Assembly (NCBI RefSeq): GCF_007971385.1
Contig: NZ_CP042434.1
Location: 4,278,001 to 4,342,000, forward strand
Source of the DNA: Arachidicoccus ginsenosidivorans
GTDB taxonomy: Bacteria > Bacteroidota > Bacteroidia > Chitinophagales > Chitinophagaceae
DNA: 64,000 nucleotides
Direction of reading: 5' to 3'
A program made the position numbers and the translations under genes. The notes beneath the pieces were generated by a model that did no database searches, was not told the DNA's origin, and saw only the letters and a list, made by a program, of their open reading frames with translations. Of this stretch, positions 49,519 through 63,808 are shown in pieces (positions within the stretch are counted from its first letter, which is position 1; the number at the start of each line of letters is the position of its first letter).

Positions 49519-50462
49519 TTACTGTTTAAACAATCGCTGGAACTTTTGCTGGATAAATTGCGTGTATTCTTCTTTCATATCTGGTGAAAGAAAACTGTGT
49601 TGAATCCAGTTTTGCCAAATTGGCAATAATTTTTGGAAGTGATCAAAGATGTAATTCCTTACTTTGACTGGGATGTCAAGATTGCTACCTAATTGATGGA
49701 AATCTTGGAGTTTTAACTTACTTTTTTTACCATTGATAGTTAGCGCAGATTCTTCGTGATCTTCCGGCATTACAATAGCTGTATTGACCAGGTCATAGGC
49801 TGGCGTAAGCGTATAACCTCCGAATGGACTTTCAATCAAGGAGAAGTTTTTTAGATGCATATCTGCATTGCCTGTTAAATAGCAAAAGATTGCTAGTTCA
49901 AAAAAACGTTGTTTATCGTAGCCTTTATTTTCTGTAAATTGATCGATGAGTTTGCCACATTTTTCTAATGAACCGCGGTATTTATGTTCTGTTAACCGCT
50001 CACTAAGCTGACAAAAATCCTCTACAGCAAGTTTTTTTTTGCCTTCTCTGTCATAGCGGCGAGTCAAGTAAGCGAGTTCTCCAGAGGCCAGGCGAATTAA
50101 AGAGTGCTTGGCGGTATGGATGCCAGCTGTTTCGGCTAAATGCATGGTTAGGTCTTCGTTTTCAGGAAGATCTTTAAATGGATGGTGAGGAGGTTTTAGG
50201 ATGAAATCGCCGTTAACTCCTACAACCGTTAATCTGGATAAAATATTTTTTTGCTTTTCCAGGTGTAAGGAAAGCTTTGGTTGGACCCCAGTCACGGAAA
50301 TATGTTATTAACTATATTTAATGCAATTTCCTCTAGCTGACTAAAACTTATGTCAACTAGTGGAGGGGTGGTTGTGCCAAACAATTTTTTTGAGCAAGAA
50401 GGGTGAAAATCATTATTATGATTATCCTTAATAACTTGGTAACAATATAAACAATTATTCAT
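49519..50462 (-). CDS. HipA/HipT-like serine/threonine kinase toxin, one frameshift
   Basis: About 314 residues after repair. The start ATG (50462) overlaps the stop of the preceding gene. N-terminal CYQVIKDN and SCSKKLFGTTTPP form a short lead, then ISFSQLEEIALNIVNN. The frame breaks near 50300 and one extra base leads into SVTGVQPKLSL, the glycine-rich segment. Catalytic GNADMHLKNFSL (Asp and Asn) and metal-binding AYDLVNT follow. HipA-type kinases inactivate glutamyl- or tryptophanyl-tRNA synthetase and slow growth. The N-subdomain of HipA is a separate gene here, as in HipBST systems. Confidence 0.86.
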
Positions 50463-50787
50463 TATTGATTTCTATTGGTATGATTGAAACAGCCCCTATG
50501 CAATCATTGCATAGAGTGATTAACAGTCCAAATCGATCTCTTGCCGCTATTTTCCAGTTGTTGACTGCTATATTTAATAACCAACCTTCTGGAATTAGAC
50601 CATCAAAGAAAGGGAACAAAATAGGACTATAATATATTTCATGCCGGATAGGTAAGGTTAAACTAATTGGATTAATCTTGCCTGGTGAATTTATATAGGA
50701 ATTATTGTATTGAAATTCATATCCTTCCGTTGTTTCGGTGATAATTCCTGCAATTTTTTCTTTAAAGTAAACATTTGCTTTTCTCAT
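50455..50787 (-). CDS. HipS-like protein (HipA N-terminal subdomain)
   Basis: A 110-residue protein (KANVYFKEKIAGIITETTEG; ISLTLPIRHEIYYSP; PFFDGLIPEGWLL) equal to the N-terminal subdomain 1 of HipA. Its ATG overlaps the hipB stop (ATGA), and its stop overlaps the kinase start, so the three are translationally coupled. In the E. coli HipBST system the equivalent HipS neutralises the kinase; the same role is inferred here. Confidence 0.85.
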   Translation of the reverse strand: MRKANVYFKEKIAGIITETTEGYEFQYNNSYINSPGKINPISLTLPIRHEIYYSPILFPFFDGLIPEGWLLNIAVNNWKIAARDRFGLLITLCNDCIGAVSIIPIEINNE

Positions 50788-50990
50788 AATTCAATTTTTT
50801 TAATAACACCTAATTCGCTGCCGAAAAGTGCTAATACCTGATTAACCTTATCAATCCTTAAAGTTTTCTTTCCTTGCTCCAATTCTCTTATAAAACGGAG
50901 ACCGACACCCGCCCTAATTGAAAGCTCCACCTGATTTATTTTTAATTGCTTCCTTTTTAATTTTACAAAATCTGATAATTTTGATTCCAT
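50784..50990 (-). CDS. HipB-like XRE antitoxin/repressor
   Basis: A 68-residue protein with a single Cro/C1-type helix-turn-helix (LKINQVELSIRAGVGLRFIR; ELEQGKKTLRIDKVNQVLALF). The gene is first in the hip operon and the start codon lies 2 bases from the nearest operator. It is expected to bind the four upstream palindromes and repress the operon, and to take part in controlling the kinase. Confidence 0.9.
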   Translation of the reverse strand: MESKLSDFVKLKRKQLKINQVELSIRAGVGLRFIRELEQGKKTLRIDKVNQVLALFGSELGVIKKIEL

Positions 50991-50992
50991 TA

Positions 50993-51132
50993 TATACCTT
51001 TTAGGGTATAAAGATAATAGTTTTAATTGATATTATACCTTTTAGGGTATAATATGTGATAATTATTTAAATACTATACCTTTTAGGGTATAATAATATT
51101 AAATTAGATAAAATTATACCTTATTGGGTATA
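50993..51132. promoter_or_regulatory. Four phased palindromic operators of the hip operon
   Basis: TATACC-N6-GGTATA occurs at 50993-51010, 51034-51051, 51075-51092 and 51115-51132. The centre is TTTTAG in the first three and TTATTG in the fourth. Starts are 41, 41 and 40 bases apart, close to four helical turns, so bound dimers would line up on one face of the DNA. The form resembles the E. coli HipB site (TATCC-N8-GGATA). The first site is 2 bases upstream of the hipB ATG. Confidence 0.9.
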
Positions 51133-53863: not shown

Positions 53864-56800
53864 TTATTGTTGAATTGTAACTTGTATATTGGGATTCTGC
53901 TGTAACCAATTAGTTAGAATATTAGATATTTGTCGATTATTAACTTTTTGATTAATCAACCCATTTAGTTCATTCCAAAAGTTATCATTATCAATAGGTG
54001 TTCTATGTCTGGTACTTAGAGAATTGGGGCTTTGTTCTCTGATTTTTTTTGCATTCTTTATATCTCCTGGACTTGACCTAAACCAATTATTTATTACGGG
54101 GTCGTTTGTGTTTTGATAATCTATAACAAATGTCCCTGCTCCATTAGGGTCAGGCGTATCCGTACCTGGCTTGTTATTTACATTAGTGTTTGCTTTAATG
54201 TCTGCTGCTTGAAATGCGTTTAGATGAACACTCTCTTTTACTTTCCAACCCATCATTTTAAGATAATCTATCATGCCTTCGCCAAATGAAGCACCCATAC
54301 TATGAGTTACTACCTCAAATGTGTTATCATCACCATATACGTCCATGCCTTCCGTTAATTCATAATAGTGGTCTCGTGCATAGGCATAACCATCTTCGTG
54401 CCTATCTGCGGCACTTGATAATGCGCTATATTCTACGTTTGTAAAATACGGGGTACTATAGTCATTGAAAAATGCCTTTGCGCCATTAACGAATGCACCA
54501 TTTGCACCATTCCAATATGTTGGTCCACCTGTTGGAGAACCAAATCCTAAATATCCATTTACAAAAATTATTCTTTGCCCGTCAGGGTCTATTGCAATCG
54601 TTGGTCTATCTAAGACATAAGTATATGGGCTGCTGTTTGGGTATTTATCAGACAACTTATCTAATATATGCCATCTTCCTATTTGCGCATCGTAAAAACG
54701 TGCGCCGTAGTCGTATTGGTTTAATCCTAAGTCTTCTTGAAGTTCTTTGCCGTTGTAAAGATATTTGTTTTGCAAGTTGCCTGTTTGTTGCAGGGATATG
54801 CCAGCCATCTGCAGTCCAAACGGATAATAACTATAAGCCTCCAGTATGGGGCTACTTACATTATAATCATCCGTAATCATCATCCGGATATTACCCAGGT
54901 GATCCTTTAAGAAGTAATCATAGAGCCAACCAGTATTGTCTGCGTTAGACCTTACCCTACCTTCAGGTGTGCCAAAGAACTGTAATGTGTCATTTAGATA
55001 AACGGCTCCCCCTATATAAGTGGTGATTGAAGGTGTAGTGAGGCTAACGGTATTATCTAAGGTGCGTTTCTGTAGTTTATTGCCCGCAGCATCATAGTAA
55101 TACCTGATAACCCCTTTGCCGGGTACCCAAATTTGACTGGGTAAATTTAAGATATTGTAGCTGATTTGAGAGATATTTTTGTTCTGATCGCTGACCATAT
55201 TCCCATTTCCATCATATATATAGTCGATGGTAGCACTGGTCTTAGTAACACTGGGATATTTAAAATCCCCCAGTGTGCTGTTTTGGTCGTTGGCTGCGTC
55301 AACGACATACTGCAGTTTATTACTCTGGGGCTTATAATGATAACTCAGCTGATCGATAATAGCAGAATTGCCAGTGGATTTTAACCCGTACTGGTTCATA
55401 GTTAGAATATTGCCATTGTTGTCATAGGTTAAGCCAGTTACATCATATTTTACCAGCTCGTTACTGAAAACGGAGCTGGTAAACTGCCCAAAATGGGCAA
55501 CGGTCAGCCGGCCTGTTTTGTCATAGCCAAAATCATATTTACGGATCTTTTTATCATTAGCTCCCTTCCAGGTCATACCAGTAATATTACCATCATACCT
55601 AGCAGTGTCATAGGGGATGCCATTGATTCTGTCATTTTGCTTTTGGTCATAGCCTAAATCAAAACCAAAATAATGCGAGTCGGGGAATGTAACTGTCTGT
55701 AAGTCAGAGGAGCTTTCTGTAAACATCTCACCACTGATTATGCCTGTAGTGGTAGCTGTATTTAGGCTATCCGTAGTGCTGTTTTGCCTGACATACGCTC
55801 TGTTTACGCCCAGCAGCCAGCCTCTGATATTATAATCATAGTCCTGAGTCTCCAGCGGCGTGGCGGTATAGCTGTTTTCACCGCTAACGACGGTGCTAGA
55901 TCTTCTTTTTCCGATTTTCTTTTCTCTAACCTGTCCCAGTGCATCATAGCCTACTTCACTGATGGTCGCATAGGCAGCAGGCATGGCTCCTGATTTAACA
56001 TGGCTGTTGCTTTGCTTCATCTCGGTCTTTACGACTCTACCTAGGTCATCATAGGTCATTTTGGTCACTACAACGGTAGTTTGGGTGGTACTGCCCTTTT
56101 TCTCTTCTTGCTTCTGAACGGTGACCAGTGGCCAGCCAGCCCAGCTGTACTGGTTGGTGCTGACGTCTACGCCACCCGTAATATTCTGGCTCTGGGTCTG
56201 GATTAGCCTCCCCTTATCGTCATAGATGTTCACTGCTGCCAGGGTAAGGGTGCTGTCCAGGACCTTTACCCTGGTCCAGGTCACCAGGCCCTTGGTGGTA
56301 ATCGTGCTATTCTGCGTAGGCGTCTCTGCAAAGGGGAAGCTGGTGGTACTGGCAGGAACAAAATAGCTGTTCCAGGTAGCTAAATAGCTGCTACTTAGCC
56401 CAGCAGGCAGTTTTGTGTAGTCGTCATAATGGGTCTCTGTTAGTATCGTAGAAGCAGTAGGTGCTGTATATGGGTATTTACTAGTATCTGCTGCTGCGGC
56501 AAGGATACTGGTGAGTGCTGTGGAGCTGCTGTATATCCAGGTGGTATCAGCCCGGTTCAGGTTATCATAATGGGTAGTCAACCATTTATGGCTTACTCTC
56601 ATTAGAGCGTCTTGTGTCATTACCAGCCTGTCTCTGTTATCATAGACCATATAGACAGGTCCCGCACCAGGGACCTGTTTTATAATCATACGGTTTCTGC
56701 CGTCATACTCATAGCGGAAGCACTGTTCTTTTAGGATATTTTGCCCTACGGTGTTCGTAAGGTTCCAGGCGTTCGCTTCCAATAGTCTTACTCCTTCTGG

Positions 56801-57259
56801 CTGGATAACGCAGCGTAAATTGCCAAAATCATCATACAGATAATAAGTGCATAGCCAGCCCGCATGCGGGCTGCCACTGCCGTTATCGGCCGTAGCGGAT
56901 AATTGCACCTTTTTAAGGATAGTATGCCCTTCTTTATCCTTAAACTCAATCACCTGTCTGTTTTGCTCGTCTACCGTAACATTCTTATAAAGACTGCCTG
57001 CAGGGTAAGTGCCAAGGGGGTTAAGAGTATAGGTGCCAAAACCGGAACCGGGTGTAGTTACATAGCTGACATCCCAGATTCTAACCGCATCTGTAGCGGT
57101 ATTGATCCAGTATTTTTGTTTGACAGAGTGGCGACTGGCTTCAGCAGGTTCGCTGGCTGAGCCCAGCCAGCTATCACCTGGTGCAAAGGTCTCTTGTACT
57201 CTGTTTAAATGAGAAAGTTCAAATAAGGTAAGGGTTCTTGCATTTAGCCTGAAAATCAC
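53864..57259 (-). CDS. 5'-truncated Rhs core with lipase-like C-terminal tip
   Basis: 1131 residues. Residues 6 to about 820 match the middle of the neighbouring full Rhs protein almost exactly; the signal peptide and DUF6443 front are missing and the first five residues come from the IS110 edge. The Rhs core (DHLGNIRMM; NQYDYGARFYDAQIGRWH; SPYTYVLDRPTIAIDPDG) ends near 930. The tip is new: FVNGYLGFG, nucleophile elbow VTHSMGASF, later NTNDPVINN and STRHRTPI, a plausible Ser-Asp-His triad of an alpha/beta-hydrolase (lipase-type) toxin. With no secretion signal or native start it may be a silent tip store. Confidence 0.8.
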   Translation of the reverse strand: MIFRLNARTLTLFELSHLNRVQETFAPGDSWLGSASEPAEASRHSVKQKYWINTATDAVRIWDVSYVTTPGSGFGTYTLNPLGTYPAGSLYKNVTVDEQNRQVIEFKDKEGHTILKKVQLSATADNGSGSPHAGWLCTYYLYDDFGNLRCVIQPEGVRLLEANAWNLTNTVGQNILKEQCFRYEYDGRNRMIIKQVPGAGPVYMVYDNRDRLVMTQDALMRVSHKWLTTHYDNLNRADTTWIYSSSTALTSILAAAADTSKYPYTAPTASTILTETHYDDYTKLPAGLSSSYLATWNSYFVPASTTSFPFAETPTQNSTITTKGLVTWTRVKVLDSTLTLAAVNIYDDKGRLIQTQSQNITGGVDVSTNQYSWAGWPLVTVQKQEEKKGSTTQTTVVVTKMTYDDLGRVVKTEMKQSNSHVKSGAMPAAYATISEVGYDALGQVREKKIGKRRSSTVVSGENSYTATPLETQDYDYNIRGWLLGVNRAYVRQNSTTDSLNTATTTGIISGEMFTESSSDLQTVTFPDSHYFGFDLGYDQKQNDRINGIPYDTARYDGNITGMTWKGANDKKIRKYDFGYDKTGRLTVAHFGQFTSSVFSNELVKYDVTGLTYDNNGNILTMNQYGLKSTGNSAIIDQLSYHYKPQSNKLQYVVDAANDQNSTLGDFKYPSVTKTSATIDYIYDGNGNMVSDQNKNISQISYNILNLPSQIWVPGKGVIRYYYDAAGNKLQKRTLDNTVSLTTPSITTYIGGAVYLNDTLQFFGTPEGRVRSNADNTGWLYDYFLKDHLGNIRMMITDDYNVSSPILEAYSYYPFGLQMAGISLQQTGNLQNKYLYNGKELQEDLGLNQYDYGARFYDAQIGRWHILDKLSDKYPNSSPYTYVLDRPTIAIDPDGQRIIFVNGYLGFGSPTGGPTYWNGANGAFVNGAKAFFNDYSTPYFTNVEYSALSSAADRHEDGYAYARDHYYELTEGMDVYGDDNTFEVVTHSMGASFGEGMIDYLKMMGWKVKESVHLNAFQAADIKANTNVNNKPGTDTPDPNGAGTFVIDYQNTNDPVINNWFRSSPGDIKNAKKIREQSPNSLSTRHRTPIDNDNFWNELNGLINQKVNNRQISNILTNWLQQNPNIQVTIQQ
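54810..57246 (-). repeat. Large direct repeat, copy B of the Rhs core
   Basis: Colinear with 60366-62802 at a constant offset of 5556 bases, with no net indel. The ends carry scattered differences; from about 55100 to 56460 I found none. This fits gene conversion or a recent duplication. Confidence 0.9.
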
Positions 57260-59205: not shown

Positions 59206-59529
59206 TCAGTTCCCATCATCAAATTGGTTATTTTTTTTACTATGCATCTCAGCAATTTCCTTAAATTTTTCTAACAAAAACAAGAGCTTATTAGGATCGC
59301 CAGCTGCAAAATATTCACTATCTTTTATTCTATAATGAAACCAATCCTCCTCACTTCGCTCCGTATCGTCTACCATTAGTTCAAGATTTTCTAATTCAGT
59401 ATCCTTCAAATTTATTTTTACAATCCACCCTGGATTATCAAGAGTCTCAATATTTATGACATGGTCATGCTCCCAATCTCCATCACATTGAAGTTTATAC
59501 CAATCCTCGAGCCATTTTATTATTTCCAT
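59206..59529 (-). CDS. Immunity 53-like protein
   Basis: A 107-residue acidic protein. WLEDWYKLQCDGDWEHDHVI, ETLDNPGWIVKINL and EEDWFHYRIKDSEYF match what I know of the Imm53 family. The ATG lies 5 bases after the repaired stop of the Rhs toxin gene, the classic toxin-immunity order. It should neutralise the toxin-24-like tip by binding it in the cytoplasm. Confidence 0.85.
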   Translation of the reverse strand: MEIIKWLEDWYKLQCDGDWEHDHVINIETLDNPGWIVKINLKDTELENLELMVDDTERSEEDWFHYRIKDSEYFAAGDPNKLLFLLEKFKEIAEMHSKKNNQFDDGN

Positions 59530-59534
59530 TTTTC

Positions 59535-62500
59535 TTATTTTTCAAATTTGAAACGTTTATTATTTGGAATTTCATCCAGTCTCGCGGGGCGTACCTTCCC
59601 GGGAATCTTTTTTTCATTAATATGGGGGTCGGAATATCTTTCTGAGTTTTATTGTTATAATGCAAGGCGCCTGGCTTGCCATCAAAATCCCCTCCATCGA
59701 ATCGCTTTCCAGCATCAAATTTATTTGGATTTTTGTCATTCTTTTTCCACTCCTGATATTTAAATATATCATCATTTGCATCTCTTATAAAAGTGGTATG
59801 ATCTCCATCAGCATTCTCTTTGTCTGGTTGTAATCTATTAGAACTTCTTACAGATTTATTAGATGACAACGATGGTGAAGTTTCAATTTCGGTTAAAGCT
59901 TCATTATCGGTTTCCCCCTTACCTTTGGAAACAAAGGATCTTATTATCTTCCCTACTGTTCCAGCGCCCAATTCTTCTGCTGCCCCTGCTAATACAAGAC
60001 CAAGCCCCACGGCAACTAAGTCCGAATTGGCTCTAATATTTAATCTTTTATCGAGTTGTTCTGTTGTAACTTTTCCACTTTCGACATCTCTTAAATCCTG
60101 TTCGACTCGATATGCTGCATATGGTTCAAGGCCTTCCAGTTCAACATGACCTGTTACCTTGTTTGCACTAAACGCATAAGTAGAATTATATTCATATTTG
60201 TCCGCTAGTGGATCAATTTTCAAAAACCTCCCAATCTGGGGATCATCCATGCGGTATTTGAACTCATATAGATCCACGCCCAAATCCTCATTGAGCTCCT
60301 GCTTTTGAAAGGTATTTTTAAAGTTGTGTAGAGTGCCTGCTTGTGTGAGCCCTATTCCCTTTTGCTGCAGTCCGAACGGATAGTAACTATAAGCTTCAAG
60401 TATGGGGCTTGCTACATTATAATCATCCGTAATCATCATCCGGGTATTACCCAGGTGATCTTTTAGAAAATAATCATAGAGCCAGCCAGTACTGTCAGCG
60501 TTAGACCTTACCCTGCCCTCCGGTGTGCCAAAGAACTGTAATGTGTCATTTAGATAAACGGCTCCCCCTATATAAGTGGTGATTGAAGGTGTAGTGAGGC
60601 TAACGGTATTATCTAAGGTGCGTTTCTGTAGTTTATTGCCTGTAGCATCATAGTAATACCTGATAACCCCTTTGCCGGGTACCCAAATTTGACTGGGTAA
60701 ATTTAAGATATTGTAGCTGATTTGAGAGATATTTTTGTTCTGATCGCTGACCATATTCCCATTTCCATCATATATATAGTCGATGGTAGCACTGGTCTTA
60801 GTAACACTGGGATATTTAAAATCCCCCAGTGTGCTGTTTTGGTCGTTGGCTGCGTCAACGACATACTGCAGTTTATTACTCTGGGGCTTATAATGATAAC
60901 TCAGCTGATCGATAATAGCAGAATTGCCAGTGGATTTTAACCCGTACTGGTTCATAGTTAGAATATTGCCATTGTTGTCATAGGTTAAGCCAGTTACATC
61001 ATATTTTACCAGCTCGTTACTGAAAACGGAGCTGGTAAACTGCCCAAAATGGGCAACGGTCAGCCGGCCTGTTTTGTCATAGCCAAAATCATATTTACGG
61101 ATCTTTTTATCATTAGCTCCCTTCCAGGTCATACCAGTAATATTACCATCATACCTAGCAGTGTCATAGGGGATGCCATTGATTCTGTCATTTTGCTTTT
61201 GGTCATAGCCTAAATCAAAACCAAAATAATGCGAGTCGGGGAATGTAACTGTCTGTAAGTCAGAGGAGCTTTCTGTAAACATCTCACCACTGATTATGCC
61301 TGTAGTGGTAGCTGTATTTAGGCTATCCGTAGTGCTGTTTTGCCTGACATACGCTCTGTTTACGCCCAGCAGCCAGCCTCTGATATTATAATCATAGTCC
61401 TGAGTCTCCAGCGGCGTGGCGGTATAGCTGTTTTCACCGCTAACGACGGTGCTAGATCTTCTTTTTCCGATTTTCTTTTCTCTAACCTGTCCCAGTGCAT
61501 CATAGCCTACTTCACTGATGGTCGCATAGGCAGCAGGCATGGCTCCTGATTTAACATGGCTGTTGCTTTGCTTCATCTCGGTCTTTACGACTCTACCTAG
61601 GTCATCATAGGTCATTTTGGTCACTACAACGGTAGTTTGGGTGGTACTGCCCTTTTTCTCTTCTTGCTTCTGAACGGTGACCAGTGGCCAGCCAGCCCAG
61701 CTGTACTGGTTGGTGCTGACGTCTACGCCACCCGTAATATTCTGGCTCTGGGTCTGGATTAGCCTCCCCTTATCGTCATAGATGTTCACTGCTGCCAGGG
61801 TAAGGGTGCTGTCCAGGACCTTTACCCTGGTCCAGGTCACCAGGCCCTTGGTGGTAATCGTGCTATTCTGCGTAGGCGTCTCTGCAAAGGGGAAGCTGGT
61901 GGTACTGGCAGGAACAAAATAGCTGTTCCAGGTAGCTAAATAGCTGCTACTTAGCCCAGCAGGCAGTTTTGTGTAGTCGTCATAATGGGTCTCTGTTAGT
62001 ATCGTAGAAGCAGTAGGTGCTGTATATGGGTATATACTGGTATCTGCTGCTGCGGCAAGGATACTGGTGAGTGCTGTGGAGCTGCTGTATATCCAGGTGG
62101 TATCAGCCCGGTTCAGGTTATCATAATGGGTAGTCAACCATTTATGGCTTACTCTCATTAGAGCGTCTTGTGTCATTACCAGCCTGTCTCTGTTATCATA
62201 GACCATATAGACAGGTCCCGCACCAGGGACCTGTTTTATAATCATACGGTTTCTGCCGTCATACTCATAGCGGAAGCACTGTTCTTTTAGGATATTTTGC
62301 CCTACGGTGTTCGTAAGGTTCCAGGCGTTCGCTTCCAATAGTCTTACCCCTTCTGGCTGGATAACGCAGCGTAAATTGCCAAAATCATCATAAAGATAAT
62401 AAGTGCATAGCCAGCCCGCATGCGGGCTGCCACTGCCGTTATCGGCCGTAGCGGATAATTGCACCTTTTTAAGGATAGTATGCCCTTCTTTATCCTTAAA

Positions 62501-63808
62501 CTCAATCACCTGTCTGTTTCGCTCGTCTACCGTAACATTCTTATAAAGACTGCCTGTTGGGTAAGTGTCAAGGGGGTTAAGGGTATAAGTGCCAAAACCA
62601 GAACCTGGTGTTGTTACATAGCTGACATCCCAGACTCTAACCGCATCTGTAGCGGTATTGATCCAGTATTTTTGTTTGACAGAGTGGCGATTGGCTTCAG
62701 CAGGTTCGCCGGCTGAGCCCAGCCAGCTATCACCTGGTGCAAAGGTCTCTTGTACTCTGTTTAAAGGAGAAGGTTCAAATAAGGTAAGGGTTCTTGCATT
62801 TACCCCCTGCCCAGGCTTTGAGATGGTGCTACTGCCGTTATACCAGCTTATCTGGTCAGCTTCAGCATCAGGGCGGAAGTGGCCATCAGCAGCGTCAGTG
62901 GCAGCGTAGGGCAACAGGGTACTGTTCTGTCTACCCATACTGTCATAGAGTGTGGAGGTAATCAGGTCTGCGCTGGTATTGGTAGCTGTTACTAGCGAAC
63001 CTTGTTTTAAAACCGTTTGTATGGGTCTGCCCAGGCCGTCAAAATACTGAACAGAGAGCTTTACGTCTGAAAGAGGGCGGGTAATGAGTAAATCGGGGTC
63101 TGTAATGGGTGCTGTTGTTGTCCAGGTGGCAATATAGTTTTGATTGCTCAATACCGTAGGCGAGCTAGTATCTGCAGGTCTTATTCCGCCTTCAACAAAG
63201 GTCGGGCAGGAGACCATAGCGGAGCCACAGCTGGAACTTACCAAAATAGAATAGCTGTGTGCAGGCATAGATTTAACAACAAAGGTATTGCTGGAGCTCT
63301 GGATTCCGATGGGTGGACCATCATAGAGCTGATAGCCGGTAAATACAGCTCTAGATCCAGAAGCTTTACCTACCGTAAAAACGATGGAGTCATTTTGATA
63401 AAGCACTGCATCACTGGCAGTAATCACTACATCACTTGAAGTAACTGGTGAGGAGGGAGTAATATACGTGGTGGCCACTATAACGATACCAGAACAACCA
63501 CTTTTAGTGGCTGCCACTGCATAACTGGCTCCACCACTAGCCAAACTGACATTACTCCAGCTAATAGCGCTACCAGTGCCGGCAACAACGCTTCCCAGAT
63601 TACCAGAAGTATTTTTTAACTGATAGTTAACGCCCGATTGGGAACCAGACATCGTTATCGTAGTCGTAGTGCCGCAGACATTACCAGAGGGTGCAAGGCT
63701 ATAATTGCTATAGGTACACTGAGAGATTGCCTCTTTACTAAGACTAAAACAAAGGAGTGCCAGGCATAAACTAAGAAACAGTGTTCTGGATTTAATATTG
63801 CTAAGCAT
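59535..63808 (-). CDS. Full-length Rhs polymorphic toxin with toxin-24-like tip, one frameshift
   Basis: About 1424 residues after repair. Signal peptide (LCLALLCFSLSKEAISQ), a Thr/Ser-rich front, DUF6443 (about 225-350: VQYFDGLGRPIQTVLK), Rhs/YD repeats to about 1110, and the Rhs core (DHLGNTRMM at 1117; DDPQIGRFLKIDPLADKYE). The tip after about 1225 ends in a toxin-type-24-like domain: DHTTFIRDANDDIFKYQEW, NPNKFDAGKRFDG, ALHYNN. The frame breaks in the T7 run 59608-59614. One more base gives MKKKIPGKVRPARLDEIPNN and the stop at 59535-59537; unrepaired, the frame runs into the immunity gene to 59495. Confidence 0.88.
60366..62802 (-). repeat. Large direct repeat, copy A of the Rhs core
   Basis: Partner of 54810-57246 at the same offset (5556). 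It lies inside the full-length Rhs gene; sequence 5' of it (signal peptide and DUF6443) is unique in the window. Confidence 0.9.

Follow-up and report, generated by a model that had tools for sequence, protein, structure and literature searches.

The closest described relative of the operon analysed here is the HipBST system of Legionella pneumophila, HipBST-Lp (mBio 2023, PMC10653801). As far as the available parts of that paper go, HipB(Lp) binds in EMSA to its own evenly spaced sites, three 18-nt operators with six-base arms upstream of hipB, which are separated by 53-bp gaps and thus repeat every 71 bp, the first lying 24 nt upstream of the start codon. The gel shifts are read there as possible intermediate occupancy and are contrasted with the cooperativity of E. 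coli HipB; homologs of HipBST-Lp are reported in the FCB group, its operators are called the first identified for HipBST, and the terms 'helical turn' and 'phased' are absent from the same parts of the text. In the literature searched (one paper library, with papers present in part) these were the only HipBST operators described, and no description of Bacteroidota arrays or of a 40-41 bp pitch was found in it. A three-gene layout with a split HipA, as in the present locus, is also known from E. coli O127 HipBST, where HipB represses the promoter (eLife 2023, PMC10627512, available in part); the operator motifs of HipBST-Lp are stated to be absent from that system (PMC10653801, same parts). E. 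coli hipBA, for its part, is autoregulated by HipB with HipA (PMC8262856, available in part). Its HipA is undivided and its HipB is a different one. With TATCC-N8-GGATA, which we take to be the operator motif of E. coli K-12 hipBA, four 18-bp palindromes were found upstream of hipB in the K-12 sequence, the same number and length as here, but with five-base arms and at spacings of 28, 39 and 28 bp, which do not obey the integral-turn rule considered below.

The window of this study is a stretch of 64,000 nucleotides from Arachidicoccus ginsenosidivorans (NZ_CP042434.1, positions 4,278,001 to 4,342,000). Its hip operon has neither TATCC-N8-GGATA operators nor an undivided HipA. With HipBST-Lp it shares gene order, protein families and 18-nt operators with six-base arms at even spacing upstream of hipB. 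Set against the available account of HipBST-Lp, it differs in pitch (41, 41 and 40 bp versus 71 bp), in operator motif and HipB helix, in the place of the first site, which lies at the start codon, in the number of sites (four, and 1-6 in relatives, versus three) and in hipT, which is split in the window strain. We consider it likely, at a probability of about 0.82, that the four palindromes are HipB operators of a Legionella-type hipBST operon, with Op1 and Op2 blocking the polymerase and Op3 and Op4 strengthening repression.

The operon and its probable operator array

The Pfam domains Couple_hipA and HipA_C sit on separate open reading frames, and the genes follow one another as hipB, hipS and hipT, the last of them divided between two frames. 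The operon is a three-part hipBST and not a hipBA. The features are as follows.

50784..50990, minus strand: hipB, 68 aa, Cro/CI-type HTH, recognition helix region GVGLRFIREL
50455..50787, minus strand: hipS, 110 aa, with a Couple_hipA domain; overlaps hipB by ATGA
50292..50462, minus strand: 56-aa ORF matching the HipT N-terminal part (CxxC...HxxxC)
49519..50295, minus strand: 258-aa kinase core of hipT (HipA_C), with a GTG start that overlaps the stop of the 56-aa ORF
50993..51010, minus strand: Op1, 18-bp palindrome ending 2 bp before the hipB ATG
51009..51016, minus strand: TATCTTTA, a putative -7 box (TAnnTTTG consensus) that reaches two bases into Op1
51034..51051, minus strand: Op2, 41 bp from Op1, which would cover the -33 region
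51075..51092, minus strand: Op3, 41 bp from Op2
51115..51132, minus strand: Op4, 40 bp from Op3

The best solved relative of the hipB product is HipB(Lp) (8ezt, E 1.6e-4), and the hipS product matches HipS(Lp) (7vkb chain B) at E 1.5e-15. In the search of solved structures the HipT profile matches 7vkb at E 1.8e-79, the HipT of E. coli O127 being more distant (7ab3, 1.9e-32). The 56-aa ORF gave no match in Pfam. In most relatives HipT is a single frame of about 306-340 aa. Its N-terminal part is in frame in 127 of 134 other loci scored and in all 70 scored loci of a later named set, while the core frame of the window lacks it; in the remaining seven of the 134 the anchor motif was not found, yet the frames are open over 310-331 aa. 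A few other hipT matches are damaged as well, by an internal stop (L028, G481, L150, G680) or a short frame. The division at 49519-50462 (minus strand) may be a real split, decay or an assembly error, the listed completeness of this genome being 94.7%. With hipT split, a HipT-containing complex may not form in this strain. Legionella-type HipBST is marked by repression by HipB and by one intact HipT kinase, which HipS neutralises; in place of that kinase gene the window has a 56-aa and a 258-aa ORF. Because hipT is divided, the operon is, as judged from its sequence, a relative of the Legionella type (HipBST-Lp) with a divided toxin gene and not an intact member.

Upstream of hipB, exact copies of TATACC-N6-GGTATA are present at 50993, 51034, 51075 and 51115. 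The four palindromes and the spacings of 41, 41 and 40 bp claimed earlier are thus confirmed, as is their reach towards the hipB start codon, Op1 stopping 2 bp short of the ATG at 50990 (minus strand). The inner six bases of Op4 differ from those of Op1-Op3. Compared pairwise, the spacers of this array have identities of 30, 50 and 55%; between loci the mean is 41%. The genome, a single contig of 5.77 Mb, contains no further exact copy. Sites with up to one mismatch number 26 per strand (22 plus the four exact ones), whereas the reversed pattern, used as a control, gave 30. Elsewhere in the genome they are thus not in surplus, and a regulon of further operators was rejected on the 22 additional sites. 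A consensus-free scan of the window for pairs of 6-6-6 dyads that agree in 10 or more of their 12 arm bases and lie 20-130 bp from each other marked two of 456 tiles of 280 bp, both of them at the hip locus.

Homologous operons and their spacing

HipT relatives were collected by searches at the level of the family (E 1e-20, 48 of 195 genomes), the class (1e-30, 84 of 395) and the phylum (1e-40, 69 of 395), each count including the genome of the window; the loci set excludes four new phylum-search matches and most weaker family- and class-search matches. Among 157 oriented loci 146 were used, the window's own included, 11 having no called hipS or hipB. Sorted by the recognition helix of HipB, they comprise the classes A1 (GVGLR-like, 98 loci, 36 family codes), A2 (GVALT, 31 loci, 19 codes), B (GVGKT, 16 loci, 8 codes) and one other. 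The operators are mostly of the TATACC type in A1, of the TATATG/TATATC type in A2 and TTACYG-N6-CRGTAA in B, whose members include L095, L097, L103 and L164-L176. In the alignment the HipT N-terminus of class A (A1 and A2) has a conserved, zinc-finger-like CxxCY...HxxC, and the aligned Legionella HipT is without this motif.

Of the 241 distances between adjacent operators in class A (129 loci, window included), 216 are 39-42 bp; A1 has 39-42 bp in 165/188 and A2 39-41 bp in 51/53. The comparison of homologous operons suggested earlier therefore bears out the regular spacing. Class B has 70-73 bp in 27/35 spacings (16 loci, from the class and phylum searches), about the 71-bp pitch given for HipBST-Lp in the available parts of PMC10653801; L097 is an exception at 61 bp. 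In the first spacing count, which took 89 of 98 loci with hipS and included the window, there are on average 2.7 sites per locus against 0.62 in shuffles (at most two mismatches, 420 bp upstream of hipB), and 114/154 spacings are 39-41 bp, as compared to 2% of 340 at 39-42 bp in the shuffles. Seven of the 89 loci lack Op1 and 16 have one site. An Op1 near the hipB ATG is common among relatives.

The later named set gave the same picture. It comprised 74 analysed loci of 80, all of which fall in A1 by a rule that counts any helix neither A2 nor B as A1. At a search range of 22-60 bp, 110 of its 111 spacings lie at 40-42 bp (40 bp, n=41; 41 bp, 65; 42 bp, 4), the other being 52 bp. At least two sites were found in 60 of the 74 loci, namely in 51 of 63 from Bacteroidota, 3 of 4 from Ignavibacteriota, all 3 from Chlorobiota and 3 of 4 others; in 11 loci a recognised Op1 was missing from the 30 bp next to the called start, and 3 had a single site. 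The pitch holds across many families and three phyla, with operator letters that differ by HipB lineage. In a distant HipA clade (17 loci fetched, 11 scanned) no dyad pair at 39-42 bp was seen, and one of the 11 has a pair at 61 bp.

The range of permitted distances is narrow. No class A spacing of 30-32 bp was met in the 154, 241 and 111 spacings counted, and those of 50-54 bp are rare (4/154, 1/241 and 1/111), so distance as well as phase seems to be held. The 40-41 bp mode is common to the Op1-Op2 (58/66), Op2-Op3 (43/50) and Op3-Op4 (11/12) steps (search range 22-60 bp), and since Op2-Op3 is not tied to the promoter, the promoter does not account for the pitch.

A candidate -7 box could be placed next to Op1. 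TAnnTTT[GA] stands at exactly the same offset as in the window in 41 of 53 A1 loci counted (53 of 93 A1 loci entered, as some A1 chains start at Op2). Of 19 A2 loci counted, 14 have the box shifted upstream by 9-10 bp and 3 have it near the A1 place; in class B, 6 of 16 loci have it one base away from that place. A -7 box of this kind spans -12 to -5 from the start (PMC9723704, available in part), and the consensus would therefore put the start near 51004, inside Op1. The predicted leader is about 14 nt, with Op2 at about -47 to -30. No clear copy of the -33 TTG was seen in the hipB promoter region of the window. A promoter of its own at Op2 was rejected, the TA of the -7 box not being conserved before Op2 in the A1 profile, which does not extend to Op3 and Op4.

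Some relatives depart from this plan in other ways. HipB has at least 130 aa in 16 of 146 loci, including L006, L007, L008, L013, L019, L049, L055, L060, L065 and L074; the C-terminal extension of about 70-75 aa had no Pfam match above the cut-off in the three tested (L007, L008, L019). The operators upstream of hipB seem to be reduced to the left half-site in L019, L055 and L060. L106, in the genome of the window (G000:C1:678546-680864), and L022, of the same genus, have hipS with a hipT-like match; over 560 bp upstream of this hipS neither a recognisable HTH gene nor an exact operator is present, so these are possibly hipS-hipT pairs without hipB.

Possible sources of the pitch

The spacing had been described as nearly exact four helical turns. 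This stands at about 10.1-10.2 bp per turn and fails at 10.5, where 41 bp is 3.90 turns, 40 bp is 3.81 and the drift over the 122 bp of the array amounts to about 137 degrees.

One explanation of the pitch, which we put at somewhat below even odds, is that neighbouring HipB-HipS-HipT complexes touch through HipT or HipS across the 22-23 bp spacer and bind cooperatively. Such bridging with cooperativity is reported for E. coli HipBA. Contact of this kind would explain why the pitch is fixed and not merely phased, class A being devoid of 30-32 bp spacings and poor in those of 50-54 bp, and why Op2-Op3 and Op3-Op4 hold the same pitch. In the Legionella relative HipB-HipT-DNA complexes do form (PMC10653801, available parts), yet its authors propose intermediate occupancy, and the roughly 71 bp of class B and Legionella is probably beyond equal contact on straight DNA. 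The array of the window is also intact although hipT is split in this strain.

Phased DNA bending appears a less probable source, and we regard it as doubtful. Here the bends made by HipB dimers would add up at integral turns, with no protein contacts between sites. The mean spacings, which are conditional on search ranges of 36-46 and 64-78 bp, are 40.3 bp in class A (4 x 10.08) and 71.2 bp in class B (7 x 10.17), and at about 10.15 bp per turn the phases are -10 and +3 degrees, respectively; the upstream shift of the A2 -7 box by mostly 9-10 bp is again about one turn. At 10.5 bp per turn, however, the phases become -58 and -81 degrees. The repeat was moreover fitted to class A, and class B would then fall within about 22 degrees with an estimated chance of about 1 in 8, so the agreement with four and seven turns is no more than suggestive. 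With phasing alone, distances of 30 or 50-51 bp would be permitted too, yet these occur rarely or not at all.

One can put forward, tentatively and with the odds slightly against it, an integral-turn rule for HipBST, with four turns (40-41 bp) in one HipB lineage and seven (70-73 bp) in the other, each turn taking about 10.15 bp. The pitch would have outlived the change of operator and helix because a HipB-HipT-HipS/DNA superstructure, and not single-site occupancy, represses.

It is very improbable that the spacing has no function and merely dates from the tandem duplication of 40-bp units. That duplication can enlarge an array is seen in L015, which has six sites with two identical spacer pairs, but these two are the only ones above 80% identity among 93 within-locus pairs, and mean spacer identity is 0.42 within loci and 0.41 between them. 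Spacers thus share no extra sequence within a locus and it is the spacing itself that is conserved, which, L015 excepted, rules out ordinary tandem repeats. The pitch is furthermore kept over many families and three phyla, and neither the 146 loci nor the later named set contained a class of close relatives whose spacer lengths vary freely.

The probable binding protein and the proposed repression

Operator and helix were compared in those 78 of 129 class A loci that have at least two sites 38-43 bp apart, the sites being located by a pattern that ignores the bases under test. The residue considered is aligned with Gln29 of 434 repressor, presumably a base-contacting residue under that number. 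Where it is Arg (53 loci), the half-site carries CC in 280/298 cases; where it is another residue (25 loci), CC is found in 0/150. A quick HipT tree of 135 of the 146 loci, with long-branch warnings, gives three changes of class label, A2 forming one group (support 98), B one group (weak, 48) and A1 the rest. Arg and CC change twice each, which makes two independent pairs, both in the same direction, so a sign test cannot reach significance, and the tree lends no support to many independent co-changes. At clade level the data support a joint change of recognition helix and operator, on few evolutionary events.

Legionella HipB carries the class B helix in the alignment and binds sites at the class B pitch, and HipB is therefore likely the ligand of class A arrays. 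That the palindromes belong to another regulator is very improbable, as the exact sites are confined to the hip operon within the genome, sites track the hipB lineage together with its recognition helix, and equivalent sites are bound by HipB in the Legionella relative (PMC10653801, available parts). An autoregulatory HipB operator array with constrained spacing, as envisaged by the sequence-only reading, is supported by the conserved pitch, the unrelated spacers, the joint change of helix and operator and the Legionella EMSA (in the parts available). It is most likely that HipB, extrapolating from the relative, binds the window array and represses hipBST.

In the repression that we infer, a HipB dimer would bind each 18-bp site. 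Op1 overlaps the putative -7 box and the predicted transcription start, so HipB at Op1 would cover box, start and short leader and HipB at Op2 the -33 region, and with both filled RNA polymerase would be blocked. Op3 and Op4 could recruit more HipB(-HipT-HipS) complexes at the fixed pitch of 40-41 bp, which may strengthen or sharpen repression, and a fall in free HipB would release the operon. Cooperativity, binding on a single face and dose-dependent release, all raised earlier, are kept as proposals.

One pitch is thus found in loci of Bacteroidota, Chlorobiota and Ignavibacteriota, and a sister lineage is near the 71-bp Legionella pitch. Arrays of about four and of seven turns make a natural series in which to ask whether cooperativity, DNA bending or the mere number of sites controls repression by HipB. 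The array pitch is also a simple mark by which hipBST operons of this kind, with their promoters, can be found in genomes.

Elsewhere in the window, identical 18-mers lie at 55739-55756 and 61295-61312, inside the large ORFs 53864-57259 and 59495-63808, a hint that these two may be related tandem genes.
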